A stretch of DNA of 64,000 nucleotides from positions 3,875,973 to 3,939,972 of the forward strand of contig WBVU01000003.1 of the NCBI GenBank assembly GCA_009192285.1. Direction: 5' to 3'. Positions 1,493 through 63,660 of this stretch are shown one piece after another. Origin of the DNA: Morchella semilibera (lineage: Eukaryota > Ascomycota > Pezizomycetes > Pezizales > Morchellaceae). The notes under the pieces were generated by a model. The model was not told where the DNA came from and searched no databases. It saw only the letters and a program-made list of their open reading frames with translations. The position numbers and the translations under genes are program-made. Numbering within the stretch: position 1 is the first letter of the stretch; every line of letters begins with the position of its first letter.

Positions 1493-3953
1493 AGGGGACT
1501 GGGGAGAGGGGGGGCTGGGAGTCTGTTCGGATCCCAGCAGACAGTTTTCGTAGCAGCGGCTTTCTGGGGTCAGGCCTACATCTATGGATTAACCTTATGG
1601 TTTAGGAGTAGAGAAGTTGGTTCTGGATAACTGGTGTAGAAGTAGGAGGAGCCATCCGCTACATACACCTACAGCCTTGCACTTACAGCGCAATGCAGTT
1701 GATTCCAAATCTCTTTTAGTAATCTACTCTACCACCCCTTAGTAGTAATATCCACTACTGCTATTTCATAAGATAAATATTCAAGGTTAGCTTAGTCATT
1801 TCCCCTGGACAATGGCCATACCGGGCGCATCCAGACTCACATAAAAAAAACACAACGAACTGTCATTGATACCTGTAGGGTTAGGTTTCTGAACCAACTT
1901 CCCCCCTGAAGCCACTTCTGTCCCCGAGACACCCTTCTCTAAAACCTGCCTCTCCCGTCACCATCCTCATCCTCATCATCCTCATCCTTCCCACGCCCAA
2001 AAACCCGGAAATACCATAACGAAACCCTAACCCTGCCTGAAAGCCCAAGCATGAGTGGTCCCGGACACCCGCTCCGGGGCCAACCTAAACGACCCGTATA
2101 AAGCGCCTATCCCTCCCTTCCTTCCTCCCTTCCTCACCCTCTCCCGCCCTATCGTATGGTAAAGTGTACAGTGCAGGCCCGCTATGGCACGAGAAGCTCG
2201 ACTTATCAGAGCATACTGTATAATCTATTGATCTGTCTTACATAGGTACATGTAGTACTTGCCACCCAGCTACATAGCAGCAGCAGCTAATAGCACCACG
2301 CCACTAAGCCATGCAAAAAAACAATAATGACGACACGGCCTGAGCAGCCCTGCTGAAACGAAAAAAAGAAAGAAAAAAAGGCCTTGGGCTGCGCTGCCGC
2401 AAGAAGCACATTTTGCACCGTATGAGAGACCTTCCCGCCAGGCTTACGTATGTGATGCGATATGGTGTGCCTGTGCCTGCTGGTCAATGTCAGCCCTCCC
2501 CCACCCCACCAAGCGCGCGCCAATCGAACCGGGGGGCGTTATTACGTACTGTAGGAAAAGTTCTATGGGCCAACGGGGGGGTTTCAGATCGTCCCGTGGG
2601 TGCGTTGTATGCAGGTGTAGATTTGGGAAGGGGGGGGCGATCTCCCGTGTTTCTGGCGCGTTGGATGGGGTTGGTGGGTAGGTTTTTGCGATTTGTGGGA
2701 ACGATGGTGATGATGATGTGTAGATGTTGTAATTTGGGGGGGGCTTGGAATTTTTAGATGTGGGGATTAATGGGGGGGGGGGGGTTGGTGGATTGGGAAT
2801 TATTATTTGACATTGCGTTTGTGGGTGTGCTGCATGGTGTATCACTCGGCTTTCGTGTGGGGTAGTGGGTTTTCCATCATTACTGGTCGTCAGTCCCGAT
2901 GTTGGGAGGGTTGCACTGCTTTGAGCTTGTGTAAGCACTTTTACTTAAACCTTTCAAAAAAAAAGAATCTATAAATTCGAGTCCGCATATGCTAAATAGA
3001 ATCACCAAATATCACTCGGAGCCAACCAGGCCTGTGCATCCCAACTCCAATTACGGTAACTACCGTTATCAGAATCACAATTGCAAATCTCACAATCACA
3101 ACGCGCACGCCCGCAGCAAGCCAAACAGAACAGCAGAATTGCTCAAATAGTAGAATCATATCATAAGGCCCAAAAGCCCGATCCGATGTATTTCATACCA
3201 CATATATATATGCATCCTCCGCTGCACATCAGCCCCCCCTTCTCTGTAGCGCTACTTGTACGTATACATGTAGTATACTACACCCCTCTCCAAATCCAAC
3301 TCGTAATAAAGGACGTCTACCAGCGTAAAACAAAATGTATATGCATCCAGAACAAAAAGGGGGAAAAAAAAGAAAAAAAGGCCGACCATGGCATGCAGGC
3401 GATAAGCTCACCCACCGGGCTCTTCGCTCGATAAAGTAAACAGACCATACACATAGAATGTATCTAGAGATTGGGACTCCACACCAGGAGCCAATCAAAG
3501 AAGAGGTTTAAAAAAGTTAGTAAACGTGTTGTCCATCCAGCTCAGCCCAGACGGATCCGAAGGAGGGGATAGAACAGAACATAAAGAGAGGAATACGATC
3601 ACAAACGTTACCGCCAGATGGAAAAACTAAAACCGTAGGTACCAAAATGCCAAATGCAAAAAAAAAGAAAAGAAAAAAACGCCCCAGCCCCCAAGAATGA
3701 AGAAATCAGTACAATGAACCAGAAGAAGCCCGCTCGCTCGCTCAAAAAAAAAAGGAAGGAAAAAATCAGAAAATCAGGAACGCCAATGAAACAAAACAAA
3801 AACCGCACCAGCGCACAAGAATACAAAAAATTACATCAAAACACTGTCATGTGAGAAACGAAAAAAACATGAAAAAGGGTTATGCAACAAAAACACAAGG
3901 TCGCGGTCAGCATAATACTCATAAGTGGCATCAATGACCCGGACTCATCCGCC

Positions 3954-4754
3954 TTATGTCCGTCGACTCCGCCCACTCTTTACTTTCTTCCCCTCGCCCA
4001 CGCCTGCCTCGGCCTCCGTCTTTGGTACCGGTGGTAGGTCAAGTCTATACCGCCTGACACTACCATTATCCTCGCCCTCCCAAAATACTCGCTTCCGTCC
4101 TCCCAATCCACATAACCATCTCCTCCATCCTTTCATCTCCTTATCCGCCTCCTCATATTCCCTTCGTCTCGCCTCGTCGCCTTTCCAGTCGATCGTCACT
4201 GCACCCAGCCCTACAACCGGTGCTCCAAACACAACTTCCGGCCTCACATGCGCCCTTGGCGGTGCCTCCACGCCCGGTAGTCTGTAATGATCGTCAGAGG
4301 TTGTCGGTGAGGTGACGTAGATGCTCGACTGACGTCGAGAGGGTGGCGGAGGATATTTCTGGTATCGTGTTGAGGACCTTCGAGTCACTGTACTTGTGGC
4401 CGCTGTTGATGCTGAGCGCCCAGAGCGTTCGGAGCGTCCTGAATGTTGGGTGGATGCTGATCCGCTGGAGACGCTTTCCCGTCGCTCGCGACCGCCTCTT
4501 TCGCAGGTGGGTGACACGAGGATACCACTATCGGAACGTATGACTGGGTTGAACTCGCACACGTTGTTATGGGTGTCGGGAGCTACGGTCGACCAAAACG
4601 TTGTGTTTGAACTGGTCTTTTCGGAAAGGTTCGAGGTGAGTTGGAGATGAGGCCGGGGTCGGGGTGCGGGGGAGAGACCCGTTAATTCGGGGGTTGCGCT
4701 GGGAGTAATGGACATGTAAGAGAGGGGTGAGTCCTGGCGGAAGGATGTGTACAT
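3954..4754 (-). CDS. hypothetical Ser/Arg-rich protein
   Basis: An uninterrupted 266-codon frame from an ATG. The N-terminal half is rich in Ser, Thr and Pro, with a clear Ser/Arg repeat stretch around residues 85-130 that looks disordered. The C-terminal third is charged and more ordered, with a patch rich in Trp, Gly and Arg near residues 205-220, and ends in a basic tail. I recognise no family. No membrane segment or signal peptide is visible. In favour of its being real are its length, biased but non-repetitive composition, and an ATG followed by a plausible start. A long gene-free stretch lies upstream. It is probably lineage-specific. Confidence 0.6.
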   Translation of the reverse strand: MYTSFRQDSPLSYMSITPSATPELTGLSPAPRPRPHLQLTSNLSEKTSSNTTFWSTVAPDTHNNVCEFNPVIRSDSGILVSPTCERGGRERRESVSSGSASTQHSGRSERSGRSASTAATSTVTRRSSTRYQKYPPPPSRRQSSIYVTSPTTSDDHYRLPGVEAPPRAHVRPEVVFGAPVVGLGAVTIDWKGDEARRREYEEADKEMKGWRRWLCGLGGRKRVFWEGEDNGSVRRYRLDLPPVPKTEAEAGVGEGKKVKSGRSRRT

Positions 4755-5131
4755 TTTGTATGTTAATGGAGTGGGTATAATTGCACTCTTGGCCAGTTGT
4801 GAAGAGTACAGATTTATATGAGGAATTAAACGTTAGAGTGAGAGACGTGGAAGTAATTTATTACAGGCAGTGTTTATTTTATTTTCCCTGCCAGATGGTA
4901 AAACAATGATAGTAATTATAGTAACGGATAAAGATAGTGGTAACGGCAATAGGTAGCAATAGTATTATTAGGTAGCCGTAATAGTAGTAGTATGTATTTA
5001 GGTAGTGGTGGTAGTGCTAGCAAGTAGTGGTGGATGTCGACTCCAGCTGAAACCAAACCGAACCGAAAATCGTATCGCAAGGCGAAGCAGAGCTGAGAGG
5101 GTGGAATAATTGAAAAGCACTGTATCGTCAC

Positions 5132-5173
<42 letters not shown>
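5132..5173. repeat. (GTA)n microsatellite
   Basis: About fourteen perfect GTA units, with scattered GTA/GTAGTGGTG units on both sides (about 4975-5215) that suggest an older, decayed array. Confidence 0.9.
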
Positions 5174-5440: not shown

Positions 5441-5466
5441 AAGCAAGCAAGCAAGCAAGCAAGCAA
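5441..5466. repeat. (AAGC)n microsatellite
   Basis: About six and a half AAGC tetramers in a purine-rich stretch that continues to about 5560. Confidence 0.9.
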
Positions 5467-9109: not shown

Positions 9110-9967
9110 GGGCTCAACTACTTACATGTACTTTATGCTTTGCCCAGTAGGTCGTAACCACAAGCGTTAACGCATGTATGCTCAAAGTAAATCGGTCCTC
9201 CTCAACCTACATACACTCACTGTTGAAGGAAACTACCGCATAAGTTGGAACAGGGGCAAGAACGCGGAGGGGAACTTGATGCTTGATTGACTGAGGTACC
9301 TTTATCTATCCTATTTACCTATCCATATATCTCTAGAAGAACTAGACATCAATGGTTTGATTCTCACGCTTCTCTTTGTACTGATGTACATTCTAGTGAA
9401 TCCCCTAGGCTCAAAAGTTACGTTTCAATACCCGAGTGAGAAATTGTGAAGATTGACAACTTGAAGTGGTGATATTCGGTCTGTATGACACCTATACAGA
9501 AAGTATGGGTTTTATTTATAGTAAAACTGGTCTGTACTTAGAGGTATAGTGCCTGACTCGCAAGGGGACTGATTAATTGGGGTTAGATTTCGTATTTTAA
9601 AGGAGACTGACATGGAGCATACTTAACTAAGGCAGATAGTATCGAGACCATTGTCACATTTTGAGAACCGGTGTATTCAAATAGTGTGGCATTGACACTG
9701 CTAACAGAGAGCTAACCCTAGCCTAGTCTGCTACTTAAGAATTTATGCGAGTGATTATTCATGATCGTGGTTCAAGATAATAGATAAGAGCCAATCAATG
9801 CTGGTAAATACATGTGTTTGTTTTGATCGCCCCAGAGCGTCAACCGGTATCGATATGAGGAGAAGAGAGCTAGAGTGGAATTTTAAACTAATCTACAGTT
9901 CATGCGATGTTACTCATTATTTGCACATTGCGTTAAACATCCCTTCCTCTAGCTTTGGCCTCTCTTT
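9110..9967. other. intergenic, AT-rich
   Basis: No gene seen. It carries one TACATGTA (9123-9130) and two copies of CGAGTGA-N6-RTGA on the plus strand (9433-9449 and 9748-9764). The next gene ends at 9968 on the minus strand, so this is downstream of its 3' end. Confidence 0.5.
9433..9764 (+). repeat. two CGAGTGA-N6-RTGA elements
   Basis: Copies at 9433-9449 (GTGA as second box) and 9748-9764 (ATGA), direct orientation, 315 bp apart, downstream of the methyltransferase gene. Confidence 0.75.
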
Positions 9968-13747: not shown

Positions 13748-16700
13748 TTTGGCTGAGTTGGGTTTTGTGGGGTGGGTATATTATTGGTGGTAGGGGTTTC
13801 AGGTATTAAAACGAATGAATTCACTTAAAGCGAGGACTATATCGAGCACAAAAAGCGAGAGTATAGAAGCGATTGTGGGTGGTGAAGGAAGGGGATTCTT
13901 GGTAGAAGGAGAATCAGTGGGGTTTTATACAATCGTAAAGGGGTGGGAAACTATCCTCGAGAAACTGGGGGGATAATATGAACAGGCGCCAGTTGACAGG
14001 GGCCTACTATAGAGTAAAATACAGTAACAAGGATTACGAATTCCGGAAAAGGTACATGTAGGCAAGTGGAAATGGATTTTCTATAAAGGACTTTGACGGC
14101 TTCTTTTTGGGAGAGTACTCTAAAGGCCTTAGAGTGAAATTACGGAAAAGGAAGGATAGTTAATTGACTATGTGCATCACCATACTACAAAGCAGGCCGG
14201 TTTAGTTCCATGTGCGTTGGTTGGATGAGCAGGCATAGACAGATGCCCATCCTGCAAGAAGATATCATCATCTCTCGCCTGGCGCAGGTACAAAAGAAAA
14301 AGATTACAAGGAAAAACCCCCAGGATAGACAAATGATTGGCACACGCCACTAAGCTAGTATCCTGACAAGGCACTTATCTGCACATCTAGGTAAGTAGAT
14401 TCATACAGGTGCGCAACAGACATCACCGTCCGAACAAATCTAAACAGCGATATCGATCCCGGCTGTTAACAAGAGTACTATACAGGCACTACTGCAAGCT
14501 GAATCATCCAATGGATAAGTGATAATGACATCCACCGCTTCAGCCATAAAAACGGGCGTCGGATTGACAGTTGGACGCCTCAAAGCATGGCAGTTACCTG
14601 TGCTCAGGTCCCCCACAAAGCTATTCGAGCCGCACAACATTACATGTAGCACTATGTAGGTGGTCCGTTTCCCCCGGAACCAACACAGTTTGATCTGCGC
14701 TGTTATCCACCCCTTGCAGGACGTGCAGGCTTTTGTGTTACTGCAAAACGTCTCCTTCAAAGTTCCTTTTGGCTACTCTCGCGTATATTACGACATACTG
14801 GATGGAATTGGGATTTTAGTCGCTCTACATACTAGTCAAAAATACAGGTTCAAATCCTCTTGCTTCCTAGAAAGCCCCTGAGAGCCCTATACTTTCTTCC
14901 TCGCAGAGCTTTGGATCACCATGAGACATGCATAGATCTTACGTCCAAGCGAAAAGAAATTTCCGTTTATCTACACAAAGTTTCTCCGGATCCTCGTTTC
15001 ACACCCGCCTTGGTCAGACTCCATGTTCAAAGTGCATAAGGTCATCTGAATTTCGTAACCTGTTTTGTGCTCACTCATATGGATCTCACCCGCTATGGTA
15101 TCGGTTGGGTTCGCCATCTAGATCAATGATCAACCGGGGATGTTATGGGAAGAATTGCTCAAGCTGAAATTAAATAACCGAAATTGCGTTTATGTTTTTT
15201 CCCCAGGGTACATATGTAGCGTCTTTCGCGCAGAATTGGAGGCCTGCTAACTAATAACTCTTAGACAAGGATCGAACGCGGAGTACCTGATTCTTTGTGG
15301 GGGTTGATATTTACGGTGATGGTCTATCTGTGTCCCCGGTCCATCTAGGAAGGCCAGCGGGTACGGGTACGTATAGCTAAGTCGGGACAAACCCCGGGGG
15401 AATCATCCCAGGACCATCTCCGCACCGGAATCATAAATAGGTATTTCTGTAGTACTAATGAGTGATTACCTGTATTTATTACACGTGTTTGCGGCTCACA
15501 TCCGAAAGTACTGTATATGCTCTGCTTGCTCTAATCGATACCCTTAATTTAGAAGCCCAGCTTACCAAAGAGTGTCTCATGCTTATAGATCATTCTAGTA
15601 TCTAAATAATTTCCAGCTCTCTACGGCAATTTTTATTGACGCCCGTCATAATCATTAGACTGACGGCGTCGAGTGATCCTGAGTGCATACATTCATCGGG
15701 TCTCAAACCGTCAATCCCGTCTGTCTAGCGAGAGAGGGCGCTTACACAAGAGATCGAATCGGTCAAACACATTCGGGTCAAATCCCACTCAGGTACTCCT
15801 ATTTATATAATCCTGATGTTTTTTTTTCTCTCGCCACGTTCTAATAAAAGTTCAACATATACATACTTGTATATATGTGGTCTGTCATGTCATACGGTAC
15901 ATCAAACTTTAACAAAAATATTTTGTGACCGATCCTTCCAACATCAATCTGGACAGCGTTTCAAATAGGCTATTATTGCACTGATGGCATTGATTGATCC
16001 GGAGAGATGAATTCCTTTGTACGTCCTTCCTTGCGTTAGGGATTTTTGAGAAGGGAAAAATGCCCCCGTATTCAATGATGGGAGACGGGTATCCCGAGTC
16101 GTACACTCGTACATTATGGTGTTTACAGGATATTCAACTCACCCGCTCGTATCCTATCTCTATATCAATGTGATTTGCGGTAAGAAAAAGAATAAATGAT
16201 CGCCGTTGAGTTTCCAACTTGGGCAAGGAGTGAACGTTCAGTGGCTGAGAACTAAAGTTGTCTCTAACGAGTTGATGGTTATCTACCAGCGAATTGTACC
16301 GAACCCCCGACATCAACGGGGATAAAGCAAATATGTGCGTTCAGCTGCTGTGAAATTTGGATCTCTCATTTGAGGTCGTGTATCATGCCAGTACTCTGAT
16401 CATTTGTTTTAATGAATAGAACCTCTCTAGTGATTTGGTATGTACACTGACGATTGATCTGGGGCCCTATTAGAACACGGGCGATTCCTTTGGTTCTGGT
16501 TCTGTTGCTTGTGGAACGGTGTTGCGATAAGAGTGCGTGTGGGGTGTTGGTTGACATTAAGCTAGAAGGGTGAGAACTGGTCCAGAGCTCAGCTCGAACA
16601 CGACAGCTCACTCGGAGGATGATAAGATTAAACGTGTGCTACCGGTCCGTGATATGGTTCGCCCTGAGGGGATTTTTCCAGTCAAAAACAAAGAAAAAAA

Positions 16701-18630: not shown

Positions 18631-21339
18631 CTTGTTGGAACGGTTGGGTCTGGGTGCTGGGGGAGAACGACCGAATATGTCTGCCCGTCTACAAAGACTT
18701 AGTAGAAGGGAGAGGAGGAGCACTGAAGCTCAAGGCTCGGAGGGAGAGTAACTGCGGAGGTTGTGGCCACGTTATTGTGCAGAAGCACAAGAGTGGGTAC
18801 GGGTCCGAGGCTAGTAGCTGCTCGTTGATCTTTCTGTTCTCTTGGTTCACACCGCAATGCAGGAATCATGCATTCAGAAGGAAACGGCTTCCCTGGATAT
18901 TGGCGCGATATTGCTTCGATCGCCGGCCTAAACGACTACTACTCTACGTAAAGTGCAAAATACACTCACCTAATAGTACTGCACAATGCCCTATCGTGAG
19001 ATCGTATCTTAATCTACAGTCGATGGGAGTGAAATGAGGTCGATGATACATGCAAAAGTTGATGGAGCCTTAAACTCTACCCGTTTCTCGCACACTCATT
19101 TTTTAGTGGGGAGGGGGAGGACCGGGAGCACTTTGGTGCGGGTGGAGCGTGCGTCGAATCAGAAGTGATGCGGCTCGGTTAGCAAGCGTTCACAAGCGCG
19201 ATGTGTGGCTCGCGCATGGAGCCCTAAGCCGCATCCAACCCCATAGGATGCTGAAGCCGAGGGAATATTGCAAGACAAGGCCATATAGATACATGATTAC
19301 ATATATTATCGTGGTGGATTCAAGGCTATAAATTACTCATAGGCATTATTTGATTCTTTCCCCTGGGTGCGGGAGAGTGGATTATGGAGTGATTGTGAAA
19401 AGGTTCCCCGATTGCTTCAAATACCTCTCACTAGCTACGAGATCTCCAATGCCCACGAACTGAGACTTCTCATGACACATAAAAACAGAAGCTGATTTCA
19501 ACTTAGTCCTCTATGGATTTAACAAAGCGCACGCTCTTCGAACCATAAAGCAGACGGGTCGGGGATCCGGATACAATACTACATGTATATACCTCTGAGC
19601 CAACCAAGACCCAAACTCCTACTGGGTTAGCATGCCTTAAATGTATGTACTTGGCAGATGGGAAGCAGAAATAATGGATTACAAATTTTTTTATACTAGA
19701 GGAGTCGTTATTGGGGTAGGTTCCAAACAAGGTGTCATATGGTAGGCTCTTCTTATCGAGTGGTAGCGGTCCAACGTGTTTGTCTTTTAGATGCCGATTC
19801 GAGATTCTGAGTAAGATAACACATCTAGAGACCACTGGCGGGATTTTTTCCACGCCGTTGTGAATCGGGAATTGCGTGCTTTTGCGGCCTCTATTAGCAG
19901 TTGTCGCGGTACCCCGGATGTTAGAGGTATCAGGCGACAAAAAACAACAGCAGGCAAAAAAAAAATAAAAAAATAAAGGCTGCGTAAATGCCGTTCCGCT
20001 AATAAGTTAAAATCGTGGAGCGAGTATTAGGACCTGCTTCAATTTCGTTTTTGCCTAAACCTTCCTACTCTAGGAGCCTTCACATATTCAACCCAAGGGT
20101 CATGGAAGTGGCAATGCAATGAATACCTTACTCTGGAGATATCCTGCAGGGCATTGGGCTTTTTCAAAACCGCACGCATTTAGAGATGCCGCTAATAGAT
20201 AGAAAGTATAGCATGATTAGGGTTCGAGCCATCCGGGTTTAATAAGTCTGCTTGGTGGTACTTGGTGTTACCCATCATGTTTTCAATATGCCCAACAAAT
20301 GGCTGTTGTACCTATCAAAGACCAAACGACGTTGTCTTCAATCACAGCTTGTCACTCGAATCTGGAAATTAGCAGCACTTCTAGCTTAAGCTTCATTGAC
20401 CTAACCGCTAGATGGGCCCGATAGGGTTGCGCATGTGTACCTTACAGAACTGATTCGGGGCTGAAATCAGGTTTTCATACGCTGGGAAACACCATCACAT
20501 CCCCACGTCACACGCCGTACACCACCGACGTGGTCGTGCTCCCCCAGAGGCCTGGCTCTTCTCTTCGTTTGATCTACTGAGCATGATTCGTCCCGACCAC
20601 AATTTTTTGTCAGCCGACGAAGTAATAATTATTTCCCCATAAAAAATACAAACTGGGTTAACAGCCTCTCCAAAATACGTGGGCCACCCCACCCACCCAC
20701 CCATCGGTTAAGTTTTCAGTCCTGGTCGTGTCGCAGTGGAACACGTTTGTCCTTGGTATTGGAACCAATACGCCCTGGGGAAGTATTAAGTCGATTATGG
20801 GATTATCGTGATGGTCCCCATTGGCAAGAATTGTTCCATGGGCTTACTCTATCGGTGTAAAGAGGGCACACCGCCCTGTGCTTTGGCGGTAGGTTGCAAA
20901 GCTTCCGTCTAATACGGCGCACGGGACTACTAGTGCGAAAATCGCAAACTACCTACGAGCTGAATAAATCCAAAAAAACAGGAAAAAAAAAAAAAGTCGG
21001 GTGGGGTGTGTGCCATTGCTCTAGAATATAGAGTGGGCAGGCTCCCACAGAAATCAATACTCTACACAATCATCACTCTCTATCAGTTGGCCGTTTCTTC
21101 GACCTGCAAAAAAAGCCAGTCTTTAGTACGTCTTTATTTTCTTTCAGGAATCGCAGGTCGGTTTTACTTCCAAAAAAAAAAAAAAAAAAAACTCAACTTA
21201 ATATATCTCCTAATACGGTTGGTCACCCCTCTCGACTTTCTTACAAGATCGGTTTCATGTTCTCTCTGTCACGCTCCCCCCTGCCTAAAAACATGGTTTC
21301 TGGGCAAATTTATAACGTTTACAGCCACTTATTACCACA
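18631..21339. other. intergenic
   Basis: No supported gene. The longest frame (19503-19940, minus) lacks family features and a good start. One TACATGTA lies at 19580. A full CGAGTGA-N6-RTGA element lies at 20342-20358 (minus strand). The last part, ending in an A run (21173-21190) and CT-rich sequence, is the promoter side of the phosphatase gene. Confidence 0.45.
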
Positions 21340-21979: not shown

Positions 21980-22645
21980 TCGCGCAATACAGAATCTATG
22001 TTTTAGGGATATATATAAAGGGTTTGAGTGATCTGATCTGGGGAGACTTTTACCGGTAAAAGCTTCTTTGGCCTGCAGGCAGGAAGTTAGTTCCGCACAC
22101 TCATTTGTATCATATTTTCTTTTGTAGAAGGAGTTACTTGATCCGTTCATTGGAAAAGCTGGCGTTTTCAGGGAACAGAAATATATGTTATCATTTCAAA
22201 AACCTTGACAGGACCATTAGTGTAACTCGAGTGACTCCTTGTGACGGATAGCCAAGCTTCTGATAAATGACATCACGCAGGGATGTAGCACATGATTGTA
22301 CTACGAGGAGGGAATATGTTTAATGCGGTAATAGCATTTACGAGCCTATTCAAGCCGGTTGTGAACATTATCAATGTGTGACACTTCATAAACACGATCC
22401 ATGAATGTAAGGAAATAATTAACAAAAACGAACGTGTGATCATTTGACATTCTACCACCAAATCTCGCGAGAAATAAGAGGGGTGTGCATGCAGCAGGCC
22501 ATCCAAAACCCGTAAAGATCCAAGACCCCATCGCAAAATGAATATCGAACTGGGCAAAAACAGAGGAGGAGGGGTATAAAACAAAACAAAAACAAAAAAC
22601 ATATAGGGAATGAGTGACTATCCCGTGAATATAATTTCCTATATT
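21980..22645. other. convergent intergenic space
   Basis: Lies between the 3' ends of the phosphatase and the acyltransferase. It contains one full CGAGTGA-N6-RTGA element on the plus strand (22228-22244), so in this case the element is not near any gene start. No other feature is seen. Confidence 0.55.
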
Positions 22646-28209: not shown

Positions 28210-29607
28210 ATGGCCAGTCACAACTCATGGCCAAACTTTGCAGAGTTGTCCCTGAAAGACGAACACCTATCACGAGTCCCTAGCTACCACACAGACGACT
28301 TCTGGCCCACGCAGAAGAAAAAGCATCCCGTACATTTACGGCCTCGGACACTCCCCAAGCGCCATGTTAGCGTTCGTAGATCGAGGGCAGGATGGATGTT
28401 CTTTCCTGCATTCCTCTTATCGGCCGCGCTTCCTATTGCTTGGCTCATAGTATGGTTTACCACAACCGACGATGAGAAGACCTGCCGTCTCGACGAAAAT
28501 AGCGCCCCAATATTCGGAATTAATTACTCGATCGGTGTTTTGTCTTTTGCGGCGGCCAAGTGGGTGGATGTTGCTTTCGACGTTGTGGTAGGGCATGGTG
28601 GACAGGCGCTGCTGTGCTGGGTGTCGTATAGAGCGATACTGGACTCGCTCTCGCAGATGATGGAGGCTGATGAGGTGTCTTATGAGTTGTTTATCACGCT
28701 CACTATGAACGGAAGTACGTTTCTTACGCTGTTGGCTATATTGAAGCGTATAGCGACTAGATGGGAACACCGCGGGAGGATGACATTGATCTTCCTGGCG
28801 ACGGCCTATGTGTTGATATTTCCCACACTGATGGCTGCGATGACGGGATATAGCACCCGCGCTGAAGGCTGGTTCATCCTCAACGACGGGAATCTCGTTA
28901 CCCATGATACGTTTCTTCATGAGATGCAGAATGCGCAAATCATCCTCGACGGGTCCCGCATCGGCATGGAAGATAATGCAACTTTCACCCTCGAGAAATG
29001 GGAGGAAATTTCCAGTCTAAACCACACTGAATGTAAGCACCCTATATTCTCTCTTCTCTTTATCCACTAAAACTTAGATCATGTAGATGAAGGAGTTGGC
29101 CATGAGTATCGCATCGGAGATGTCGTCTACCGTGTCGGTTTCGAGCCACTTCATACGCAGTTTGGCTACCGATTCCGCGGTGAAGCCTACGATATGGCCT
29201 TCACCAGCAACCCAAACCGGCACCGGTGCATCGCCACCGAAAAGTACCAGTACGGTGTCTCTACGGTGATATTCCGGGGCACCATTGTGCTACAGATCTT
29301 ATGGACCTATGCCATCTATGCTCTGTGGGTACACGCAAATAGGAAGGGGCAGCTGTGCAGCGCGGGAAGGAAGTTGGGGCCTTTTAGGGCTGTCGCGGAC
29401 CTGGCCGGGGCGATGAAGGTGGACTTGGGTGAGAATGCGAGTGCGTATCCGGATAAGGTGCTTGAGAAAGAATGTGAGCGGTCAAAGCCGGGGCTCAAGT
29501 ATTATGTGGAAGCTTATGGGGACGGGACATGGCATGTCGGCTTGTCGTCGGGCAGGCCAAAAGACGAGATTTTGATTCTGGAAGATGATAGGCGATTATA
29601 CAGATAG
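28210..29607 (+). CDS. conserved-looking integral membrane protein, unknown function
   Basis: Two exons (28210-29032 and 29078-29607) with a 45-nt intron (GTAAGC to CTTAG) give 450 residues. The N-terminal 70 residues are polar and basic. Strong membrane segments lie at about residues 71-90 (FFPAFLLSAALPIAWLIVWF), 105-125, 195-215 (LIFLATAYVLIFPTLMAAM) and 355-375 (IVLQILWTYAIYALWVH). A region of about 120 residues between the last two spans contains N-glycosylation sites and probably faces the lumen or cell exterior. The C-terminal 75 residues are soluble and charged. I recognise the general style of uncharacterised Pezizomycotina membrane proteins but no named family, transporter motif or enzyme motif. 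Confidence 0.8.
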
Positions 29608-30816
29608 GGGACACACTTACGTACTTTTCTTCCGGATCCCCTCTTTTAAAAAATCGACATACATATATGTAATGGGTGGGTGTTTATCTTTTTTCTTTTT
29701 TCTTTCTTTCTGTGAGTTAGGTACATGTAGGATGGGATTTTAGCGTTTAGATGGTGCTACATGTATACATGTAGCGGTCGTGGATGGTGCAGTGTACTTT
29801 TCGATAAATTATCCAAATCGAAAAACAAAACATACATGTAGTTCCAACAAGAGAGGCCTACATGTATTGTATGATCATAATCAATCACTCGCCAATTCTG
29901 GACGCGGACTTGGCATTCACTAAGAACCCACCACACAACTCCGACATAATTCCTTGAACCCCCCACTGGACAGAAATCCTTTCCACACACCTCTTAGAGA
30001 GGCTGCAGGTGGATTAGAAGTAGACAATCCTATAGTCTAGATGTATCTATGCCTGGGCCTTGCCCCCAACCATACGGAACACGCGGTTTGACTACATGTA
30101 GCTTGCAGTGCAAATCACTGGTAGAGCCGCATGGAATATGCCTTCACAGAATGCAGTAAGGAAGCACTGCAGCAACCATATAGCGGTAGTAGCATGTGCG
30201 TACTCGTGCTGGGTTTCTAAGTTCATAGAGTATCACTCGGGCTCAACTGCTCTTATGGAATAGAAGACACGGCGATATACATACTTTTTTTTTTTTACAT
30301 GGGGGGAGGAATGTTGCGTTGGTGTACGTACTGATACTCTTAATGATATCATATATGGACAAGTCAATCAAACGAACCAATCACACATTATCACTCGCGC
30401 GCTCAATCACCCGTGGTCACTCGCCTCAATTTTCCCAGGAATAATAAAAAAAAAACCCTCCACGTTTTATAGTCCACATTTTACAACCCGCCCACACGCC
30501 AACTAACCAAGAAAAATAAAAGTAAAAAGAAAAGAGCAGAAACCCAACCCAATAAGCACACGAATCCACCAAGATCTGAAAGCAACAAACAAGCTAAGCC
30601 AAGATACAATATATATGTTTAACAGCTTATATAAATGTAGGAAGAAGATCACAGAAAAAGAAATGAGGCTTGCACCTATAGAATAAGAGACATAATAAAC
30701 AGAAAGAGAAGAAAAAAACACCGGGACCAGCAAGCCATGCAACCACAATAAATAAACGAATCAAAACAGAAACAACTAGTCCTACACCTCCCCTCGGATA
30801 GGCGCAAAATCCCAGA
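29608..30816. other. intergenic, dense in short dispersed motifs
   Basis: This convergent space lies between the 3' ends of two genes. It holds six TACATGTA copies (29722, 29758, 29766, about 29833, about 29859, 30093) and four CGAGTGA-N6-RTGA elements on the minus strand (about 29875, 30223, 30381, 30407). No coding gene is seen. It is the densest patch of both motifs in the window. Confidence 0.6.
30223..30423 (-). repeat. cluster of three CGAGTGA-N6-RTGA elements
   Basis: Three exact copies, 30223-30239, 30381-30397 and 30407-30423, all in the minus orientation. The last two are 26 bp apart and sit in a longer similarity: both have a Y-rich lead and a GATTG after the second box. The second box is ATGA in the first and GTGA in the others. 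Confidence 0.8.
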
Positions 30817-35989: not shown

Positions 35990-36172
35990 TTGTACTTGTG
36001 CTTTATTGGTGGGGTAGTAAATTCGTACCGGTATCTAAAGTGTATAGGTCGGTCAAATGATTTTTTTTTTAGCGGTTGCAACATGAAACGGCCCATTATG
36101 TAAGTGGATCATAAATAGTCACTCGTCTGCTTTTAAAACTTTCTATGTATTTTAACGAAAGCACTACAGTCA

Positions 36173-37897: not shown

Positions 37898-39666
37898 TGT
37901 GAATTGACTGACTAGTTATGGGTGGTGGTTAAAGACGGCGAGTTGGTCGTCTTCATATACCGTTTTGTGTCCCAGTGCGCACTTTCCCCTCTTGCTGATA
38001 TGTGGCCCTGTAAAACAGAGAGAGCTTGTGGTATTTGTTATGCAGCACCCTGCATAATACCTTGGCGCTTCATGGATCTGCGCACTTTGATAGGGGTGCT
38101 TCTGTGGAGAGGAAGATTTTTTCTTCCTGCATATGGCCATGAATCGGTATTGCCTATGTACACTAGGAAAGCATCGCTAATAAGAAATAATTTGATTGGA
38201 GTCGAAGGTTGATTTTGCCTCCACTAATGAACGGGGGCCCCACTGAGTTGATAGGCAATAGGGAGCACCTGCAGGCATAGCATGGAGTGCTTATCACGCT
38301 GCTGCTGCTGGCTGCTGCTGCACAGTGGAAACAGCTAAACATTGCGTAAATATAGAGCTGACACGCCTTATTTCTCAAGCCCATGTATAGTTAAAAGCTT
38401 ATATGCTTATCTATGATTTATCCGTTGTCAACATCTGCCATGCCCCACAGTGCAATTTTTGCCACAATCCTCAGTGTTCATATATCCCAGATCTCAACTT
38501 AAGTTTAACCCCGCCTATATTTACGCTTTCCAGCTACTATAATCAAGCACTTAATTGGTGGGAAACAGATCAACGATTTACTCAACCCTGTCACTTCAAG
38601 ATCTTGCATCGTCTACTCTTAACAGCGCGGAGCCAAGCTCACGAGCCTATTTTTCCCGTTTGTTGATCAGCTATGTACCGGCCATCCACGCACGGATATA
38701 TATTATGATCGTCCCCGCTCTAGACATCACGTAAAATTCTCCATAGAGAGCCTATAGAATAGCAAGCCGGGTTTAACTAGTTGACTACTTTCTTCATATT
38801 ACTCTACTGAGCGTATTACCTCTGGCTCGTGTGTTAATTCATGGTTCCCTTGCTTTAGGATCAGGAGTGTGGGTCGGGACAAAGGGTGGCTGTCGACTTT
38901 GGCTCTTGGATAGAATAGCTGGTAGGTTGGTACGTATGGTGTTGGGTTCACCACCGGTGTTGAATATGCTTTGTATAGATTAGAAGATACGGATACGAAA
39001 TAGAGGAAGCACTGGCTTAACTGGGGCATGCTAAATCATAAGTTATCACTCGTACAGAGTGCTGAGACTTTGATCCCCCAGGGAAACATGACTTGAATTT
39101 CAATTCTCATATCCTATTCTGGCACGCTCAGATATTAAGACCTGTAATACATGTAGTTCAAGGACAGTATCTAGATGTTGTTAGGCGCATGTAAGTTAGA
39201 TTGGGCTACAAGACGAGTTCCTTGATCAAGATAAACTATAAAGACCCATATGCTAATAAAAAACACATGGGTTTGATAATAATAATTTCATTATTTTTTT
39301 TTCTAAGATACTAACTCGTATGATGGTGAACCATCAGACATGCGGAGAGATCTCCTAAAATCTTATGACGCCATGTTAAGTCGATCTTTAACAGCCCTTT
39401 CCCTCTTTTTACCATCGCATAAGTCCGTTACAAAGAATAACTAGAAATATTCCAAACAACGGAATCAAAGAAGGAGTGAAAATCACGGTAAAAGACCAAA
39501 AAAATACAAGAAATGATATCCGATCTTTTATAACCCTTTTTAATTTCACCCTATATTCTTCTCAACTATTTGGAGCGAATTCGGGTATCATGTAACCGAA
39601 GTTACTAACTTTTAATTATAATAATGATGATAATGTAGCCTAAATTTAATCATGTGGTTAGCGATA
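37898..39666. other. intergenic, upstream of F-box gene
   Basis: No supported gene. TACATGTA at 39148 and one full CGAGTGA-N6-RTGA at 39036-39052 (minus). A CTG/CTGCTG run lies near 38300. Short frames have no family content. Confidence 0.5.
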
Positions 39667-39718
39667 TCAAAAGAACATATCTAAAAGAGTGGCTGTATTA
39701 TACCAAAACGGCCAAAAT

Positions 39719-41787
39719 TTAAGCCCAGCTAGACAAAAGTCAAACGAACAGTTAGCTGGAGAATTGGATAGAGTTATAAAAGTATGATCATACCAGCGGC
39801 TGGCAAAGAAGTCACTGAATCTGGATTCTCCATTCTCGGGGGCTGGAGTGGCAGGCTGTTCGGCGGAACTACCACCTGACAATGGATTACCATCACTATC
39901 AATGATTTCATCTATATTAAAAAAATGTTAGTCAAACAATTTTGATACAATCAAAATAATTCCCTGGACTTACGAGCATAGCAACAGCGGCTTCCATAAG
40001 TGCATCCTCCGTGCAACCAAGCCATACAGGTCTTGGTCTTCCACTGTCCATGACGGGGAACGATGCGGAGTTCCTTCTTCCCATGAGCGAACTGGCAAGA
40101 ACGGCCATAGCGGCATTCGCCAATTTCATTCCAGTTACGGCACATCTCGGTCTTGTAGAGAGCATTGGTCTTCTTGTTCAAGTGACGTGGTGGAAGACTG
40201 GCAGGATTATCGCCAGCAGATCTGGTAGGGACCATAACCACTGCCCCCTGTTGAACAGCCTGGGCAATACGGGCAGTACGACGGTCATTTTCGTCATACA
40301 TCCCATCTAAGTGTGAATGCTGCTGAGGGTTAAACCGACGAGGGGCAGCACCAGCAGACTGGTCATAGACTGGCTCAAGAGGCTTCTCGGCGGTCTTAAT
40401 CAAAGGGTGCGGAATGCGTTAGAAAAAAATATCTGAGATCGTTTACGTATCATAGATGAAGTTACCGGATACATCATCCTTCCATAGCTACCGCTATTGG
40501 GACGCAAATCAACTTTTCTGGTAGGTGCATCCTGCAGCTCATAGCTTCTACATGGGGGCTTGTTAGTGGTCAGAAAATCTAGTGGGGAGTATGGGGTTGT
40601 GGGTATATTACGCAATGATTTCATTATAGGCCCTCACTCTATCTGTAGGGTGAAACTCGTTGTTTTCACGATAAACGAAGCTACGGCCTCTAGCATCCTG
40701 ATCACTTCCAATAGGAGAGGAACCGGCAGCTGAGGGTGAAGGGCTTCCCACCATTTCTGGATACACAGCGAAGTTCTGAGGGCCTGTAGAGCGGTAGTAG
40801 TCAATGTCTTCACAGCGAGCAGGAGTAGCATAGATGGATCCTGGCTCGGACTGCGGTTGTTGCAGTTGGCCGTGTGTAAACATTTCGTAATTGATGTTGA
40901 CTGGGTAATCGTGGGTGCCACAGTTGACTCCAATCTCGCGTTCCTGGACGTAGGGACCGTTTTGGAGATAAAGCTCCTCGCGAGCCTTGATAGAAAGACG
41001 ATTCTCGAACATCTGTCTATAGTGAGCAACAGAGTATAGCTCGGTTTCGGCTGGCACACGAATAGCGTAAAGTCCTGGAATATCAACGTTGCGCACTAAA
41101 CAAGCAACACGTCCATAAAATTCGATGGGCTTGTCGTGAAAAAAGAACTCGATTAACTCTCCTTCAGGGAGGTAGAAAGGCTTTCCTTGGCCTGGGGGGC
41201 GACCATCGTAAACTAATTTGTGGCAGAAGGTAAGTAAACGGGAAGGAAAACAAGTGGGGGGAAAAAGCGGGGGAAAAAAGTGGGAAAAGTTTATGAGGGA
41301 TCAGCATACTATTAACTTTTGGGCTTGCAGAAGATTCAATTAAAAGAGTCTTAGGCGAGGAATTAAGACTCGGTTTAATGGATGTGGTCGAGTGATTAAT
41401 CATGGCTTTAAACTATTGCATCGATTAGTGTTAGTAGGATTATACACAGAGATTATCCAACTAGCAAATAGCAGCTGCTGAAATGGTATATAAAATTCAT
41501 TATAGGGGAGATTCGATGAAGGCAGCGATGCCATAGATTAATGCATTGGAACAACCAAACCGAACGCAATTCCTGAACCGAAACACATGGATAGCAGTGG
41601 GGAAACGCAAGAAAGATCTACTAAACCAGGAAAATCTTGTGTATACATGTAGTTGTGAAAAGACGAGAAAAATGAAAATGAACGTTAATGGATGGATTCT
41701 TACCTTATCCTGCTTTGTAGGTTCAAGTTCGAGAAAAACGGTTTTTTCACGGGGTGAAAGGTCAAAGAAGCTTTGCTTTTCAGGCAT
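39719..41787 (-). CDS. tandem CCCH zinc-finger protein (TTP-like mRNA-binding)
   Basis: Exons are likely 41704-41787, then an unresolved junction, then 40612-41212, 40466-40547, 39974-40394, 39794-39911 and a short last exon 39719-39728. The tandem fingers are YKTEMC-x8-C-x5-C-x3-H and WKTKTC-x7-C-x5-C-x3-H. The final His of the second finger is made by splicing (C plus AT). TTP-like proteins bind AU-rich 3' UTRs and destabilise mRNA. Upstream of the fingers there is a well-formed domain (residues around [10 protein letters not shown] to RVPAETEL) of unknown function. The first exon ([15 protein letters not shown]...) ends in phase 0, but the next exon needs one extra base, so a small exon is probably missing in 41213-41703. 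If the last intron (39729-39793) is retained, the tail is 34 residues longer, ending at 39667. Confidence 0.8.
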
Positions 41788-43295
41788 GCTGAAACAGTCG
41801 TTTGTTTTGTTTTGTTTTTCCTTTTTTTTCCTTTTTTTTTTTGAAAAAAGGTGGGGTTGAAGATAAGGGAAGATTGGAGCTAGAGAAAACGGAAGGGGGC
41901 TTATCAACCAAAGAGACGGTAGAATATGAAAATTTAGATTATAACGTGATGAAATTGAGATGGGAAGAGTAACGATGGGGAGAAGGAGTAGGAAAGATGG
42001 AAAGTGGAAAAGTGGGTGGGAAGTGGTGGCTATTTAACTTTTCCGTGTCTACCCTACATATCACTCGGTATTTACTAAAGGTGACCAGTGCGGCAGGTTG
42101 TGTGGATATGGTCATACGGTATTTGAGTGCCTATTTTATTAGCCTAGGTGAAAGTTTAATTTTCGTATGCCCATACAGGGCACGCCGCATTAAGAATTGT
42201 ATTTGACTGGCTCATTCTGGTATTCTGTAAAGCATACCACGAGATATAGCACTTCTCAAATCTTCTTCATATTGATACATGCATCTCCTGGATTATGAGG
42301 GGAGTGTAGAGCAGTAGTTAGACCCCATATACCGAGATACAATAGATACATGTAACACTCAGTTGGGTGTGGTCTCGAGGCCCGCATGACCGTAGAGAGT
42401 AGGCCAGTGGACCGTATACCTGCCCGCCATTCGATATACATGTACCCTGTCAACATCTCCTGTATGTACCGCAGCCTATATGAGTACATCTATCCTCAAT
42501 TAAGCTACTAATGAATATAGCTTGTACTTCGTCTTTGGCGGCGGCACCCATGTACATGTTAACTCTGCTGAGGATGAGTTCTACCCTCAAAAAGAGACTT
42601 TGGGTTTGTTTAAAGTGAACTTTCGAATCAGCCTTTCCACCCTCCTCACTGACTAACCTGACCACTCTTAACCCCGGAACGAAGTCACCCCTATAGATAC
42701 AATAACTCCGTCATGAATCATGATCACACCCCTACCCTTCTATGCTATGAAAAATCTCGCCTGCTATACTTATATTTATTTCACTTTGCTCATGAGAATG
42801 TCGTGGCGGGTTTGGAATCCTTTCAGTTCCTTCTGACCTCTTACTAAATAAGGATAGGCTGCTGAAAGGATTTAAAATTGTACAGAATACTGACTGTATT
42901 AGCGGAATAAATTCTTTTATATTATAACGATACAGGGTGGAACTTATTAGCCCTTTTATAACAATAATTACCTTGGCAACTAAAGTGGTAGTTTATTAGA
43001 CCTTACTACGATTATTACAGCTAGGATATATCTTTCTAGGCCCGTATAATACCTCCAATAAAAGCAAAGGTTTACTACGAGTGATAAGTTATGACTACGG
43101 TATCAGATATTATATACCTTTTATGAATCTATGTGATGGAAAATTTTAGCGAGTGATACATTATGACTCTTGGCACATGGGTTAGCCGTGGTTGACAAAC
43201 ACCCATCATTTTGTTTGATAACATCATGTTTACGGTACATGAAAATATACTACAAAGAGTCACCCAACAAGATAGGAATAGGTAAAGCGAACCAC
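41788..43295. other. intergenic with paired dispersed elements
   Basis: No gene is seen. TACATGTA at 42347 and 42437, an isolated ATCACTCG at 42060, and a pair of full elements on the plus strand near 43078-43166. The first 200 bp is the promoter side of the zinc-finger gene. Confidence 0.5.
43078..43166 (+). repeat. direct pair of CGAGTGA-N6-RTGA elements
   Basis: Two exact copies, 43078-43094 and 43150-43166, in direct orientation 72 bp apart. The similarity extends past the element: GAGTGATAAGTTATGACT and GAGTGATACATTATGACT differ at only two of eighteen bases. A third copy at 39036 (minus) shares this longer form (GAGTGATAACTTATGA). Confidence 0.85.
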
Positions 43296-56533: not shown

Positions 56534-58184
56534 ACACCTAATATTTACTTTTACTTGCCTTCAACTTGTTGTCTAAGAATTTGCCTTTTCTCTAGACAAA
56601 TCTTGAATAGTGGTTTTGTTTATATTGCTTATTGTGATTGGACCGGCTTATTCTTTTCGCTATTACCAAAAAAACACTTACCCATTTTATTTCGAAATAT
56701 CTACTTATTGGAGCGGTTGTATCTGCCTATCTATCTCGCTTAGTGCGCGTATGGATATCAGAAGCTGTATGTAAAATTGAGGACCCCAAGTAAATACCAG
56801 TGACCTCATTAGTCATCTTATCCAGTCACGACTCCCTTATTAATATTACAAAGATTCCTAGCGGCGCCAACGGAGGAGTCCGGGCAGGAAGCGCAACCGA
56901 GTGATATTGTGTGAAGACCTTGACAAAACAGTACTAGTTTCCTCATACGGACTAGTGAAAAATATGGAGAATGGGGTGGAATACATGTGTGTTAAGCAGT
57001 CTATACAGTGCTCTCCGGTCCGATGAACAGCCAACCACGCTCTAGTGCCCACTCTACCATCAGTCCACCACCCCGTAGATACCCGGAAACCGAAATTGCT
57101 CTATCGATTAGGGATGTCATGAATGAGGGTGATCGCGTGAGGCGGAATGGTTCGGGTTTTGTGGTAATAGTGAAAAGGTGTAGAGCAAGATTGTCCCTGG
57201 GGGGGGGGGGTAGATCGGGCAGAGCCTCCGAGTGATGTGGTGTTCGAGCGAAGTGAGCAATTTGTTAGCTTTCGAATTTCGAGGACCTAATAATTAGTTC
57301 GCAAGCAGCCCCCCCTCCCCCCCGGTGTAATTATGGGTACAGGCGATACCGTTCAACACAGGCTCCCTGGTTTTCACCACTTGCTCGACGTCTCTAGGAC
57401 TCTGAGCCGTATCTGGATTGCCGCATACCAATTCATACTCCCCGCTTGCCCCGGTCTGCAACCTCTGTGTCCATGTTGATAGAACTGTATGCATCTTCAA
57501 GTAACTAGGTACTATCAACTTAAGCCTGTGTGAGTAACAGAGTCCTGTCATGACAATACCATGGAGCTGATGAATGTTGATTAGCTGTGTATGATAGTTA
57601 TGCCTTGAGATATGGGTAAGAAACAGTCGGCTCCAGGGACTTATAATAGGATAAGGAATCGACGGCGTGTAATCGAGTACATACCCATTTTAGAAGCAAT
57701 GGCCCGTGCGGGGGATACAACAGCCGGCCGAGCTCACGTACACACGTCAGGATCAAGCTATGGTTCTCAAGTGCCCTATCGGCGGACCTCAGCCAACTTC
57801 AAAGCCTTCGGACTGACAAAACTCACGCAGTACAATATGACAGCTCCATAAAGACGAGGGAGAAGGCCACCTAATATTAATGCAATGATTATAACAAAGC
57901 CTATAATCTAATGACATGTCCCACATAAGAATGGTAGGCTATTCTATGGATGATACTCCGCTACTTTCAATTATCTTGACAAAGTTCCTCCCAAACACCC
58001 GCTATCACTCGATATGCTTCTACACAAACGAGAGATGGTTGGTGTGGCAAGTACTAGCACTACCTCGTGGCCATGTGATACCTTCCGTAAAAGTGGAACG
58101 GAAGGTTTAAAGATTACTAAAAACTAGGATAGAGAAGTATGTCAAAGTAGAAAGTATTCAAGATCGTGAACCATAAGAGAACGG
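56534..58184. other. intergenic
   Basis: Lies 3' of fimbrin and 3' of the regulator gene. One full CGAGTGA-N6-RTGA element at 56898-56914 (plus), a near match at 58003 and an isolated CGAGTGA at 57230. G and C runs near 57200 and 57310. Frames here are short and unconvincing. Confidence 0.5.
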
Positions 58185-60390: not shown

Positions 60391-61914
60391 CTTAGTGGGA
60401 TGGGCCCTTGGGATCCTTAGGTTTCCGCTAACCAGAATGTGGGGCAGGGCAGAGAATTATAGCGGGATACTTGTAGGTAAGGTACCTGTATCTAGATCCA
60501 AGACTTAAGATCCAGACTAAAAATTTGGGTAAATTTCTATCTTCCGCGGACAAGAGAAAAGGCTGAGTTGGAGTAGATAGATGCAGTGCGAAGATTAGCT
60601 GTAACATGTCAAAAATCACCCAATATTTCAGCGGTGAAATTCAATGATGTCACTCTGACACTTGAAGCAACTAGGCTGAGATTTAGGTGCCCTTTTGGCA
60701 CAGGGCAAATCGACTGGATGAGGGTTTTTTTTCCTTTGGCCCAGATAGGGTCAGCAGCGAGAACCCCCGACCCGCCAGCGAGATTGTCCAATCACAACTC
60801 CATGAACATTAGGTGAATCTCTCCAGCCGTCCTTAAAAATGTGTACTATCAGTGGTTTTAACACTGAACGGGGTAGTTCTCGACATCTCGCTGGGGACAG
60901 AGACTTTTCTTAGTCGGTTGCAACTTTTTTATGAGTATTTTTCCTTTCATGCATTGCACGTACATATGATGAAAGCTGCAACATCTTCGTCGGGGTTGTG
61001 ACAGGCGGTATGTGTGCATGTAAAGTATACATGTACTCTAAGAGTCCCGGGGGCATGCTTGGTACTACCGGCTACTAGACCAGATTCATGTAATTGATAC
61101 TAAAGAGAACCACATCCCTGACCTTTAAACTGTCTGTCCAGACTTGGGAGCTTGTCAAGTGTTGCAGCGGTGGTCGTTTACTGCATACATTGGCAACAGA
61201 ACACTATTTCAACCCAAATAGAGCACATACACACCGCGCACCCAAAGATCCTGACTCTACATGTAAATACATTAAGTACATGCACAAATCCCTTAAGAGA
61301 TAAGCTGAGGATTACAATACATGTATGTATGTCTCACAGAGACCGTTTCCAATCGCGTGTGTTAGACAAGCGGTCTTCTATTGGTTCTTTAACCACATTC
61401 ACAGGGATTACAGACCCCATTTGAGACAATTTACTATAGCTATCAAACTTACATCCCTACATGATGTAAGAAACTCCCTTCAACAGCCTTATTCCTAGCT
61501 AGCCTTGAGATTCTCAAAACCTCCACGTATCCGCCAATAGCGACTCTATATAATATTTGCAGTTAATTGCAACGGCCAAAACCCCGGAGGTAGGCACAAT
61601 ATACGTGATTAGTATTCAGGAATATCGGTAGAACAGCTGATAAATGGACTCTCCGGTATTACATACATTCTAACGACAAGTATCTTCTATGGTATAGCTA
61701 TGTAATGTTAAATCGCGAGGTCATCAGCAGAGGTTAGTTAAGCGACGAGCTTGCAGGTATCTACCGTGTATATTCGTGCTCATGTAATATCACTCGCACA
61801 TCCGAGAGGCATCTGTGGCCTATGTAGTCAGCCGCATCCACCATCCTGAGCACTTCAAGAAACAGAAACCCCCACCATTCCATATCACCACACCCTACCC
61901 GTCACCTCATCCTC
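60391..61914. other. intergenic between two divergent genes
   Basis: Upstream space of the regulator (minus) and the orphan ORF (plus). TACATGTA at 61028, 61258 and 61318. One full CGAGTGA-N6-RTGA element at 61780-61796 (minus), about 120 bp upstream of the orphan start. No gene is seen. Confidence 0.5.
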
Positions 61915-62589
61915 ATGAATACACCCGACCAATCTTTCATCCTTGACGTCGATTATGCCCCACCCAAGTACATCGAGGGAGTTGGGGTCTTCCGCAACGG
62001 CGCGAGTCATGAAAAGTACCAACCCTATATATTTCAAAGCTCTGTGTTGGTCCCGGGGAATCATTGCTGCTTCCCAACCCCTGGCCTGGGTCTCCGGCTC
62101 CGAATATACTGTCCGTTTGATTCGCCATTGGAATCTTCCCCTTACTCACATGCATGTCCCGTGAAATCGCTTACCTTCTCATCCGAGGGGCCCGAAGGTC
62201 GTCCTGTAGTACCAGGAGATGAGAAGTTGAGAGGCGGGCCACTCGTGATTTTCAGAAAGGACTACAAGCCGCTACAGCCAAAACAAGTGGAGGTTCTCTG
62301 GAGATATCTCCGCCACTTTAAGCATGGAACAGACCCAATTCACAATGGTTATGGACTTGGGTCCTATCACACATTTTCAGCCAATGGGGCCCTCCGACAA
62401 CCACCACCAAACAGAAAAAGAGGAGTTATGGATGTCATTCAGGGAGAAGCGTGGCATTATGAGGAGCTAACAAGGGCGTACTTTACGGTCAACAACTTTC
62501 ATGCGTTCTTCCATGTTATTAGGCATCGGCGGTTATGTGGAGGGGATGAGAGCTGGAGGGGTGTGAACTCGCTTTACGATGGTGAGTAG
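61915..62589 (+). CDS. orphan hypothetical protein
   Basis: A single frame of 224 codons from an ATG in a CT-rich, intron-free context (61860-61910 is a pyrimidine and A/C-rich leader). The composition is balanced, with several Trp, His and Tyr residues and clear ordered segments (VEVLWRYLRHFKHGTD, FTVNNFHAFFHVIRHR). I recognise no family and no motif. No signal peptide or membrane span is visible. The last codons (DGE then TAG) overlap a perfect GTGAGT donor, so the frame could continue by splicing, but I found no acceptor that gives a convincing next exon. Probably real and lineage-specific, or a decayed part of a larger gene. Confidence 0.55.
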   Translation: MNTPDQSFILDVDYAPPKYIEGVGVFRNGASHEKYQPYIFQSSVLVPGNHCCFPTPGLGLRLRIYCPFDSPLESSPYSHACPVKSLTFSSEGPEGRPVVPGDEKLRGGPLVIFRKDYKPLQPKQVEVLWRYLRHFKHGTDPIHNGYGLGSYHTFSANGALRQPPPNRKRGVMDVIQGEAWHYEELTRAYFTVNNFHAFFHVIRHRRLCGGDESWRGVNSLYDGE

Positions 62590-63660
62590 AATCAATACAG
62601 AAAAAGGTCTCACTACGGTCAAATAGGTTGTGCAACACGGCTATGGATATTTTTTTCCAAATCTTCGGGAAGGGAGGGGGGGCGGGGGAGGGGGCTATTG
62701 ACTTATGACGGTCACTTGTCACTTATTCAAACGTCATTCCTAGCACAGTATTGATCTGTATTTCTTAATTCAGACATCTTTCCCCTTCGGTCAGAGAGAT
62801 CTACTGCCAAACTTCTCAATGTGTACCTACGAAACACAACCCCGAGTATTTTTATCCGAAAGGTCATTAGCATCATGTCGTCCAGTCGCATTGTGGTAAT
62901 TCATCGACAGATTGATAATGCCACGTCAAATTTAGACCCGTTGTTGCATACATACGGCGTGCACGTATAAGTGGGGGCATTGGAAGAAGTGGAAATCTCA
63001 AGGATGGGGGTTTCATGGAACACGTGTGCCCGAGTGATTTGCTGTGATTACAGAATTTCATTGTGACATCTACCTTACGTTATCAAAATTTGTCAATCAG
63101 CTGATTAACACTGAGTTTTTTTTTTTTGTTCAGTGGGTTCGACTTTCCTTTTGAATCCAGCCTGGGCAAACCGGGCTTTACCCAAGTGCACTGTAAGGAT
63201 TCACTGCAAAAGTAATCCCTGACCTGAATCATTCATTGCACGCCATTCCCACATATCCTCGGTTAGAAACCCGTGTCTAACAGACCGGTGTCGGGTATGG
63301 TTCCCTGTAGCCGTTCTAGGGACCATTGGAAGCGGCAGTCGGAAAGCCCAATCTTGTGGAACAGAGCCATGGATAGGAGATATTGCAAATGTGAATTATT
63401 CACCAGGTCCCCAGCTTCACCGCCGCTCGCAGCCTTTCAATGCCCCCTCCGAGAAATCCGAGTGAGAACTCATGATTAACACGCTCATCAATTGCGGTGT
63501 AGCTATGATGATATCTTGCTCCTTATCCTTCGTTCAAGCAAAATGTCTAGCCAGTTCGTCGAGTCCTATCCAGTATATACCTAATTCTTAAAACAAAAAC
63601 AAAGAAGTATATGAAAAGGGAAAGACTCCACGATAAACATCTCTACCTTGTCTATGACCT
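62590..63660. other. intergenic
   Basis: No gene is seen. Two full CGAGTGA-N6-RTGA elements on the plus strand (63031-63047 and 63459-63475). The second box is GTGA in the first and ATGA in the second. Confidence 0.5.

Follow-up and report, generated by a model that had tools for sequence, protein, structure and literature searches.

What keeps a short DNA word nearly unchanged in the spaces between the genes of a fungal genome, on either strand and at thousands of places? The question is raised by 64,000 nucleotides of Morchella semilibera (assembly GCA_009192285.1, contig WBVU01000003.1; C19:3875973-3939972), called here the window, within a genome of 56.76 Mb on 23 contigs. In keeping with a fungal genome, it has 70 matches to PF04082, a fungal-specific transcription factor domain, and 14 control genomes have none. 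A sequence-only reading of the window had described a 17-bp composite element, CGAGTGA-N6-RTGA, recurring between genes; all 17 of the starts and strands that it listed are exact matches, and 100 shuffles averaged 0.03 matches and never exceeded 2. The 7-mer CGAGTGA, which it had put at about 30 copies against about 8 expected, occurs 30 times on the two strands of the window against an expectation that we recalculate as 5.5. When RTGA is sought at every spacing from 0 to 30 bases after this 7-mer, 17 matches fall at spacing 6 and 0-2 at each of the others. We propose, at a probability of roughly 0.5, that one abundant DNA-binding protein or tight complex, sequence-specific and resembling a general regulatory factor, recognizes the element.

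Abundance and Strictness of the Element

With the pattern in reversed letter order as control, the exact element is present in 8,470 copies genome-wide (4,226 + 4,244) and the control in 44, an excess of ~190-fold. The sequence-only reading had set a genome-wide peak at spacing 6 as the check on its claim, and the peak is there: RTGA at spacings 0-5 pooled gives 669 matches (control 325) and at spacings 7-20 pooled 2,032 (control 554), and those listed for spacings 7-20 include spacing-6 sites with an extra RTGA downstream as well as copies of an unrelated dispersed repeat. Spacing 6 is thus a single sharp peak both in the window and in the genome. The genome count is slightly inflated because some of the assembly is duplicated. 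Contigs C9 and C10 are near-equal in size and identical over the 9,842 bases compared (L039/L040), and the similarly matched C12 and C13 align at 94-99% over part of their stretches (L042/L043), which suggests that both pairs are duplicated or haplotype contigs.

The word is also strict. Allowing up to one mismatch raises the genome-wide count to 13,697 (control 1,513), and subtracting the exact copies leaves 5,227 variants with a single mismatch (control 1,469). Changes of the last base account for 1,558 of these (control 139) and C-to-T changes at the first position for 890 (control 125), which leaves about 2,780 for every other single change combined (controls, about 1,200). Inside both boxes the bases thus hardly vary, and appreciable variation is confined to the two outermost bases. 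Near-cognate sites in which the last base is not A (RTGB) number five in the window where 0.17 are expected. The 234 kb of letters examined comprise the window and 17 further stretches, of which one is a duplicate and two are 42-45% N; they contain 38 exact sites and 15 with one mismatch.

Finer structure was drawn from 72 distinct copies (74 in a second tally), in which the fixed bases are imposed by the search pattern. The information content of the element is ~24 bits, and particular bases are favored within the N6 and directly after the element: position 8 holds T or C, seldom G, and A not once; position 9 favors A; positions 12 and 13 are mostly pyrimidine; position 18 favors T; and position 19 is again mostly pyrimidine. 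No clear conservation was seen beyond positions 1-19 in the 72 copies. With these preferences the consensus extends to CGAGTGA(T>C)A-NN-YY-RTGA(T>C)Y. Divided as CGA-GTGATA-NNYY-RTGATY, it can be taken as two putative RTGAT half-sites ten bases apart, the first preceded by CGA. The earlier suggestion that boxes ten bases apart would suit a dimer or tandem binding agrees with this form, which would fit two modules on successive helical turns.

Position Relative to Genes

Gene models came from a small ab initio finder trained without supervision on the letters of the genome (~30% coding; 140 introns, median 65 bases), the validation of which consists in its agreement with the Pfam-supported frames of the window. 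For 36 distinct sites from the window and 14 other stretches (the window, itself no random choice, contributes 17), no site centre lies in a predicted coding exon or intron, compared with 33.3% and 4.3%, respectively, of random positions; merged into 27 clusters, again none falls inside a predicted gene. This is the exon depletion that the sequence-only reading had asked to see. Its statement that the CGAGTGA words of the window mostly avoid exons holds for 26 of the 30; the number within predicted coding sequence is four (36119, 37384, 50095, and 58398) and not two, and the word at 36119 belongs to the full site at 36109-36125. Sixteen of the 17 full sites in the window are clear of predicted genes, and the exception, this same site, touches an F-box gene model that extends to 36119, although the open frame already stops at 36173.

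Adding 33 sites from short loci, in which gene ends are often cut off, gives a set of 69. The nearest gene end is a 3' end for 33 of these and a 5' end for 15, and the other 21 have no gene end within 1.5 kb. Copies near 3' ends are 16 sense and 17 antisense and those near 5' ends 7 and 8. The latter 15 lie at scattered distances of 127-1,307 bases and do not cluster near start codons. Since both orientations and both gene ends are represented, the element does not match a simple oriented promoter signal, as had been argued earlier from copies in both orientations and in convergent spaces. A preference for 3' ends appears in the window and 14 stretches (21 vs. 5, p = 0.003; clusters 13 vs. 4, p = 0.05) and in all 69 sites (p = 0.014), and an earlier, cruder exon predictor gave 28 vs. 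10. It is nevertheless unproven, because the other 33 sites divide 12 vs. 10 and 64% of random mid-locus positions in those loci are themselves nearer 3' ends. We therefore claim intergenic position and indifference to orientation, and no 3' rule.

Within the window the Pfam-supported genes are a PXA/PX/Nexin_C gene, an F-box gene, a serine hydroxymethyltransferase, a NIPA-type transporter, and a calponin-homology gene; four of the five have a site within 1 kb past the stop, and none has one within 1 kb before the start. Four exact sites, all on the minus strand, share the space between convergent predicted genes at 28210-29607 (+) and 30817-34173 (-), at 29875..29891, 30223..30239, 30381..30397, and 30407..30423, and the last two stand in tandem with 26 bases from start to start. 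The site at 36109..36125 (-) lies just past the stop of the F-box open frame (36173-37915, -). That at 43078..43094 (+) lies past the 3' end of the serine hydroxymethyltransferase gene (minus strand, ending at 43296), and the next copy, 43150..43166 (+), is 72 bases away on the same strand. The calponin-homology-domain gene (predicted 54395-56533, +) has the site at 56898..56914 (+) past its 3' end. The copy at 61780..61796 (-) is upstream of a predicted plus-strand gene at 61915. The remaining exact matches are at 3002..3018 (-), 9433..9449 (+), 9748..9764 (+), 20342..20358 (-), 22228..22244 (+), 39036..39052 (-), 63031..63047 (+), and 63459..63475 (+), and the near-cognate RTGB sites are at 2832..2848 (-), 15670..15686 (+), 16598..16614 (-), 41389..41405 (+), and 57995..58011 (-).

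Spacing of Neighboring Sites

Along C1:25795-1094000 there are 187 sites with a mean gap of 5.7 kb, and neighbors share orientation in 99 of 186 cases. Gaps of 1-2 kb have the same orientation in 26 of 34 pairs, which is one bin of eight and was found post hoc. The same contig holds a 138-kb desert (C1:635606-773910) without an exact site on either strand where ~24 are expected; it is possibly a centromere or a repeat block.

Close pairs are 5-9 times over-represented. With the last base left free, close tandem pairs number 235 genome-wide against ~27 expected under random placement, and tail-to-tail pairs number 71 against ~14 by the same arithmetic. Among the 98 tandem pairs listed, start distances of 16-17 are absent, 18 pairs are at exactly 18 and 10 at 19; a simple Fourier sum over the tandem distances gave no evident helical period. 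Among the 49 tail-to-tail pairs listed, 10 have an identical 11-base RTG-CAY gap (Poisson tail multiplied by 29 spacings, 3e-4). Three of these ten could be compared in their letters and have unrelated spacers; some of the seven others may share a common origin. Short arrays of whole sites also occur, at C1:25795-25847 and C1:5477752-5477836, with periods of 18 and 23 bases.

A Second Palindromic Word

A different word is abundant in the same DNA. The palindrome TACATGTA occurs 28 times in the window against 1.1 expected (e.g., at 29722, 29758, 29766, 29833, 29859, 30093, 45418, and 61258), and in the window and 14 stretches 62 of 63 copies lie outside predicted coding sequence, with unrelated flanks. 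An association with the 17-bp element was tested and is absent. On these counts TACATGTA looks like a second abundant intergenic site.

Competing Explanations

Could the word simply have been copied around the genome? Dispersal by a transposable element has some footing, as one repeat family carries the site at 32 places with up to 3 mismatches (e.g., C1:1932482-1932508; five copies start TGAGTGA, a C-to-T change at CpG), and a common 164-base repeat lies beside the sites of two sampled loci (L001 and L003). Origin from a single transposon family, which the sequence-only reading had named as what would undo its claim, is contradicted by the flanks: the 72 copies share at most 44% identity over 80 bases, with none of 2,556 pairs above 50%, when a transposon-borne repeat should have homologous flanks. 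As the carrier family accounts for 32 of 8,470 copies, under 1%, we reject a transposon origin for the element and regard this explanation as largely refuted and hardly credible. Five stretches with repeats in common (L034, L036, L042, L043, and L046) contain no site, as if the element shunned repeat-rich DNA, although L035, L041, and L045 are site-free as well and parts of L042 and L043 are N. Molecular drive, in which the word would spread or persist by biased copying or repair without local function, is very improbable. Strictness, abundance, and unrelated flanks do resemble bacterial DNA uptake sequences, and the 890 C-to-T variants could be decayed copies, yet the preferred pair distances indicate a bound protein, and in fungi we know of no comparable process of uptake or copying. 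Least probable of all is an RNA-level signal for processing, stability, or 3'-end formation; 33 of the 69 sites are indeed found no more than 1.5 kb past predicted 3' ends, but such a signal should have one orientation, and sense and antisense copies are balanced at both gene ends, so that we reject it.

A conventional transcription factor, acting from enhancer-like sites free of distance and orientation on a very large regulon, would agree with the orientation indifference and the intergenic position. Cooperative pairing at fixed distances is common among such factors and matches the pairing found here. We consider this explanation unlikely, however, given the wide scatter of the sites nearest 5' ends, a number of exact copies that is very large for one regulon, and the small tail of degenerate sites. 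A replication element, either an origin-licensing site or a one-sided, polar fork barrier bound by a Sap1-like protein, is rather improbable. At one per 6.7 kb, the sites are packed densely for origins, and neighbors share orientation scarcely more often than not over the stretch of C1, though more often at 1-2 kb. In its favor, the site is asymmetric and intergenic, and GC skew, read in the direction of the motif, has a tendency to positive values ahead of it and to negative values beyond it (e.g., -0.090 +/- 0.034 at +100 to +250 in noncoding DNA); this skew is weak, reaching some 2-3 standard errors in a single one of the ten flanking bins. A precedent also exists in Sap1 of fission yeast, which, in the portion of the source available, joins nucleosome depletion to fork blocking (PMC5371812).

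A Proposed Protein-Binding Site

Recognition by one abundant, general-regulatory-factor-like protein is the explanation that we prefer. What computation supplies in its support is a strict and abundant word that is missing from predicted genes, takes either orientation, has unrelated flanks, and forms close pairs in excess and at preferred distances. Thousands of intergenic sites are expected of a general regulatory factor, and the genome holds 8,470 copies, with 0 of 36 in predicted genes. The putative protein would read CGA together with a half-site GTGAT and then a second half-site RTGAT ten bases on. Half-sites at this distance lie on the same helix face, where two DNA-reading modules or a tandem dimer could dock across two turns, and neighboring bound proteins would touch each other. 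Most probably it would behave like a general regulatory factor, binding tightly and leaving slowly; it would keep intergenic DNA free of nucleosomes and set transcription units apart by a fixed boundary or roadblock. The lack of a promoter focus favors a boundary, roadblock, or replication role over plain activation.

Several observations weigh against this proposal. The best-known general regulatory factor sites are in promoters, and only 15 of the 69 sites here are nearest a 5' end. Noncoding G+C around the sites is ordinary (0.442-0.468 vs. 0.449), and some tandem pairs are plain tandem duplications, such as that at C1:5477752 with its 23-base period. Finally, no candidate binding protein was found: a search for the ABF1 family gave 0 matches, but it is uninformative, as the 14 control genomes gave 0 as well.

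A bolder form of the proposal is tentative and, in our judgment, doubtful. The ~8,000 near-invariant, non-promoter sites might constitute a lineage-specific genome-partitioning element, on which a putative two-module protein in tandem and tail-to-tail assemblies would separate transcription units, block forks, or anchor chromosome structure. Such an element would be a counterpart of insulator proteins in role and not in descent.

Relation to Known Systems

The CENP-B box, with its pogo-derived relatives in fission yeast, is 17 bp long, bipartite, and asymmetric, as is the element; its sequence differs, and the element consists of dispersed single sites and not of satellite repeats. Sap1 docks on repeats across successive helical turns, and its site too differs in sequence from the element. 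In the sections available of two papers, Sap1 of Schizosaccharomyces pombe is a main determinant of nucleosome-depleted regions and forms a polar fork barrier in certain binding arrangements (PMC5371812, PMC4046669). The sites of budding-yeast general regulatory factors, such as Abf1 (CGTNNNNNRNGAB) and Reb1 (TTACCCK), are intergenic and bound by abundant factors, as is proposed here, whereas the 69-site sample has no promoter clustering; promoter nucleosome-free regions are discussed for these factors in the accessible part of PMC2897762. The Abf1 core is given in excerpts of PMC12305957 together with a SELEX site that ends in ATGAT. The element resembles Abf1 in being bipartite and in this ATGAT end, which is like the second half-site, but it has CGA in its first box (CGAGTGA) in place of CGT and a different gap, and so departs from the Abf1 core. 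According to the accessible part of PMC2897762, yeast lineages differ in which of these factors they have, and the three yeasts most distant in the comparison lack Abf1. As yeast lineages exchange these factors, a further, novel factor in this genome is plausible.

The sequence-only reading knew of no named fungal element of this form, and a search for exact strings and degenerate forms in open-licence literature likewise found no description. Nor did titles and opening lines of abstracts on motifs, fungi, and promoters point to such an element for CGAGTGAT, and the available portions of PMC11481914 (palindromic Isw2 motifs) and PMC10985990 do not describe it. Novelty is provisional, because the search was limited to open-licence papers. 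With one protein as query, no fungal contigs of relatives were found in prokaryote and viral collections.

Significance

Fungal DNA-binding factors that organize chromatin have been described for budding and fission yeasts, as far as the consulted portions of these papers extend (PMC2897762, PMC12305957, PMC5371812, PMC4046669). A word as strict and abundant as this one offers a handle on a putative chromatin-organizing factor in another fungal genome. It could serve as bait for affinity purification and as a set of anchors for chromatin maps, and it provides thousands of natural replicates of a two-module site. To our knowledge, no insulator-like system has been described in this group of fungi, and if the sites were indeed to act as boundaries or fork barriers, they would represent such a system there.

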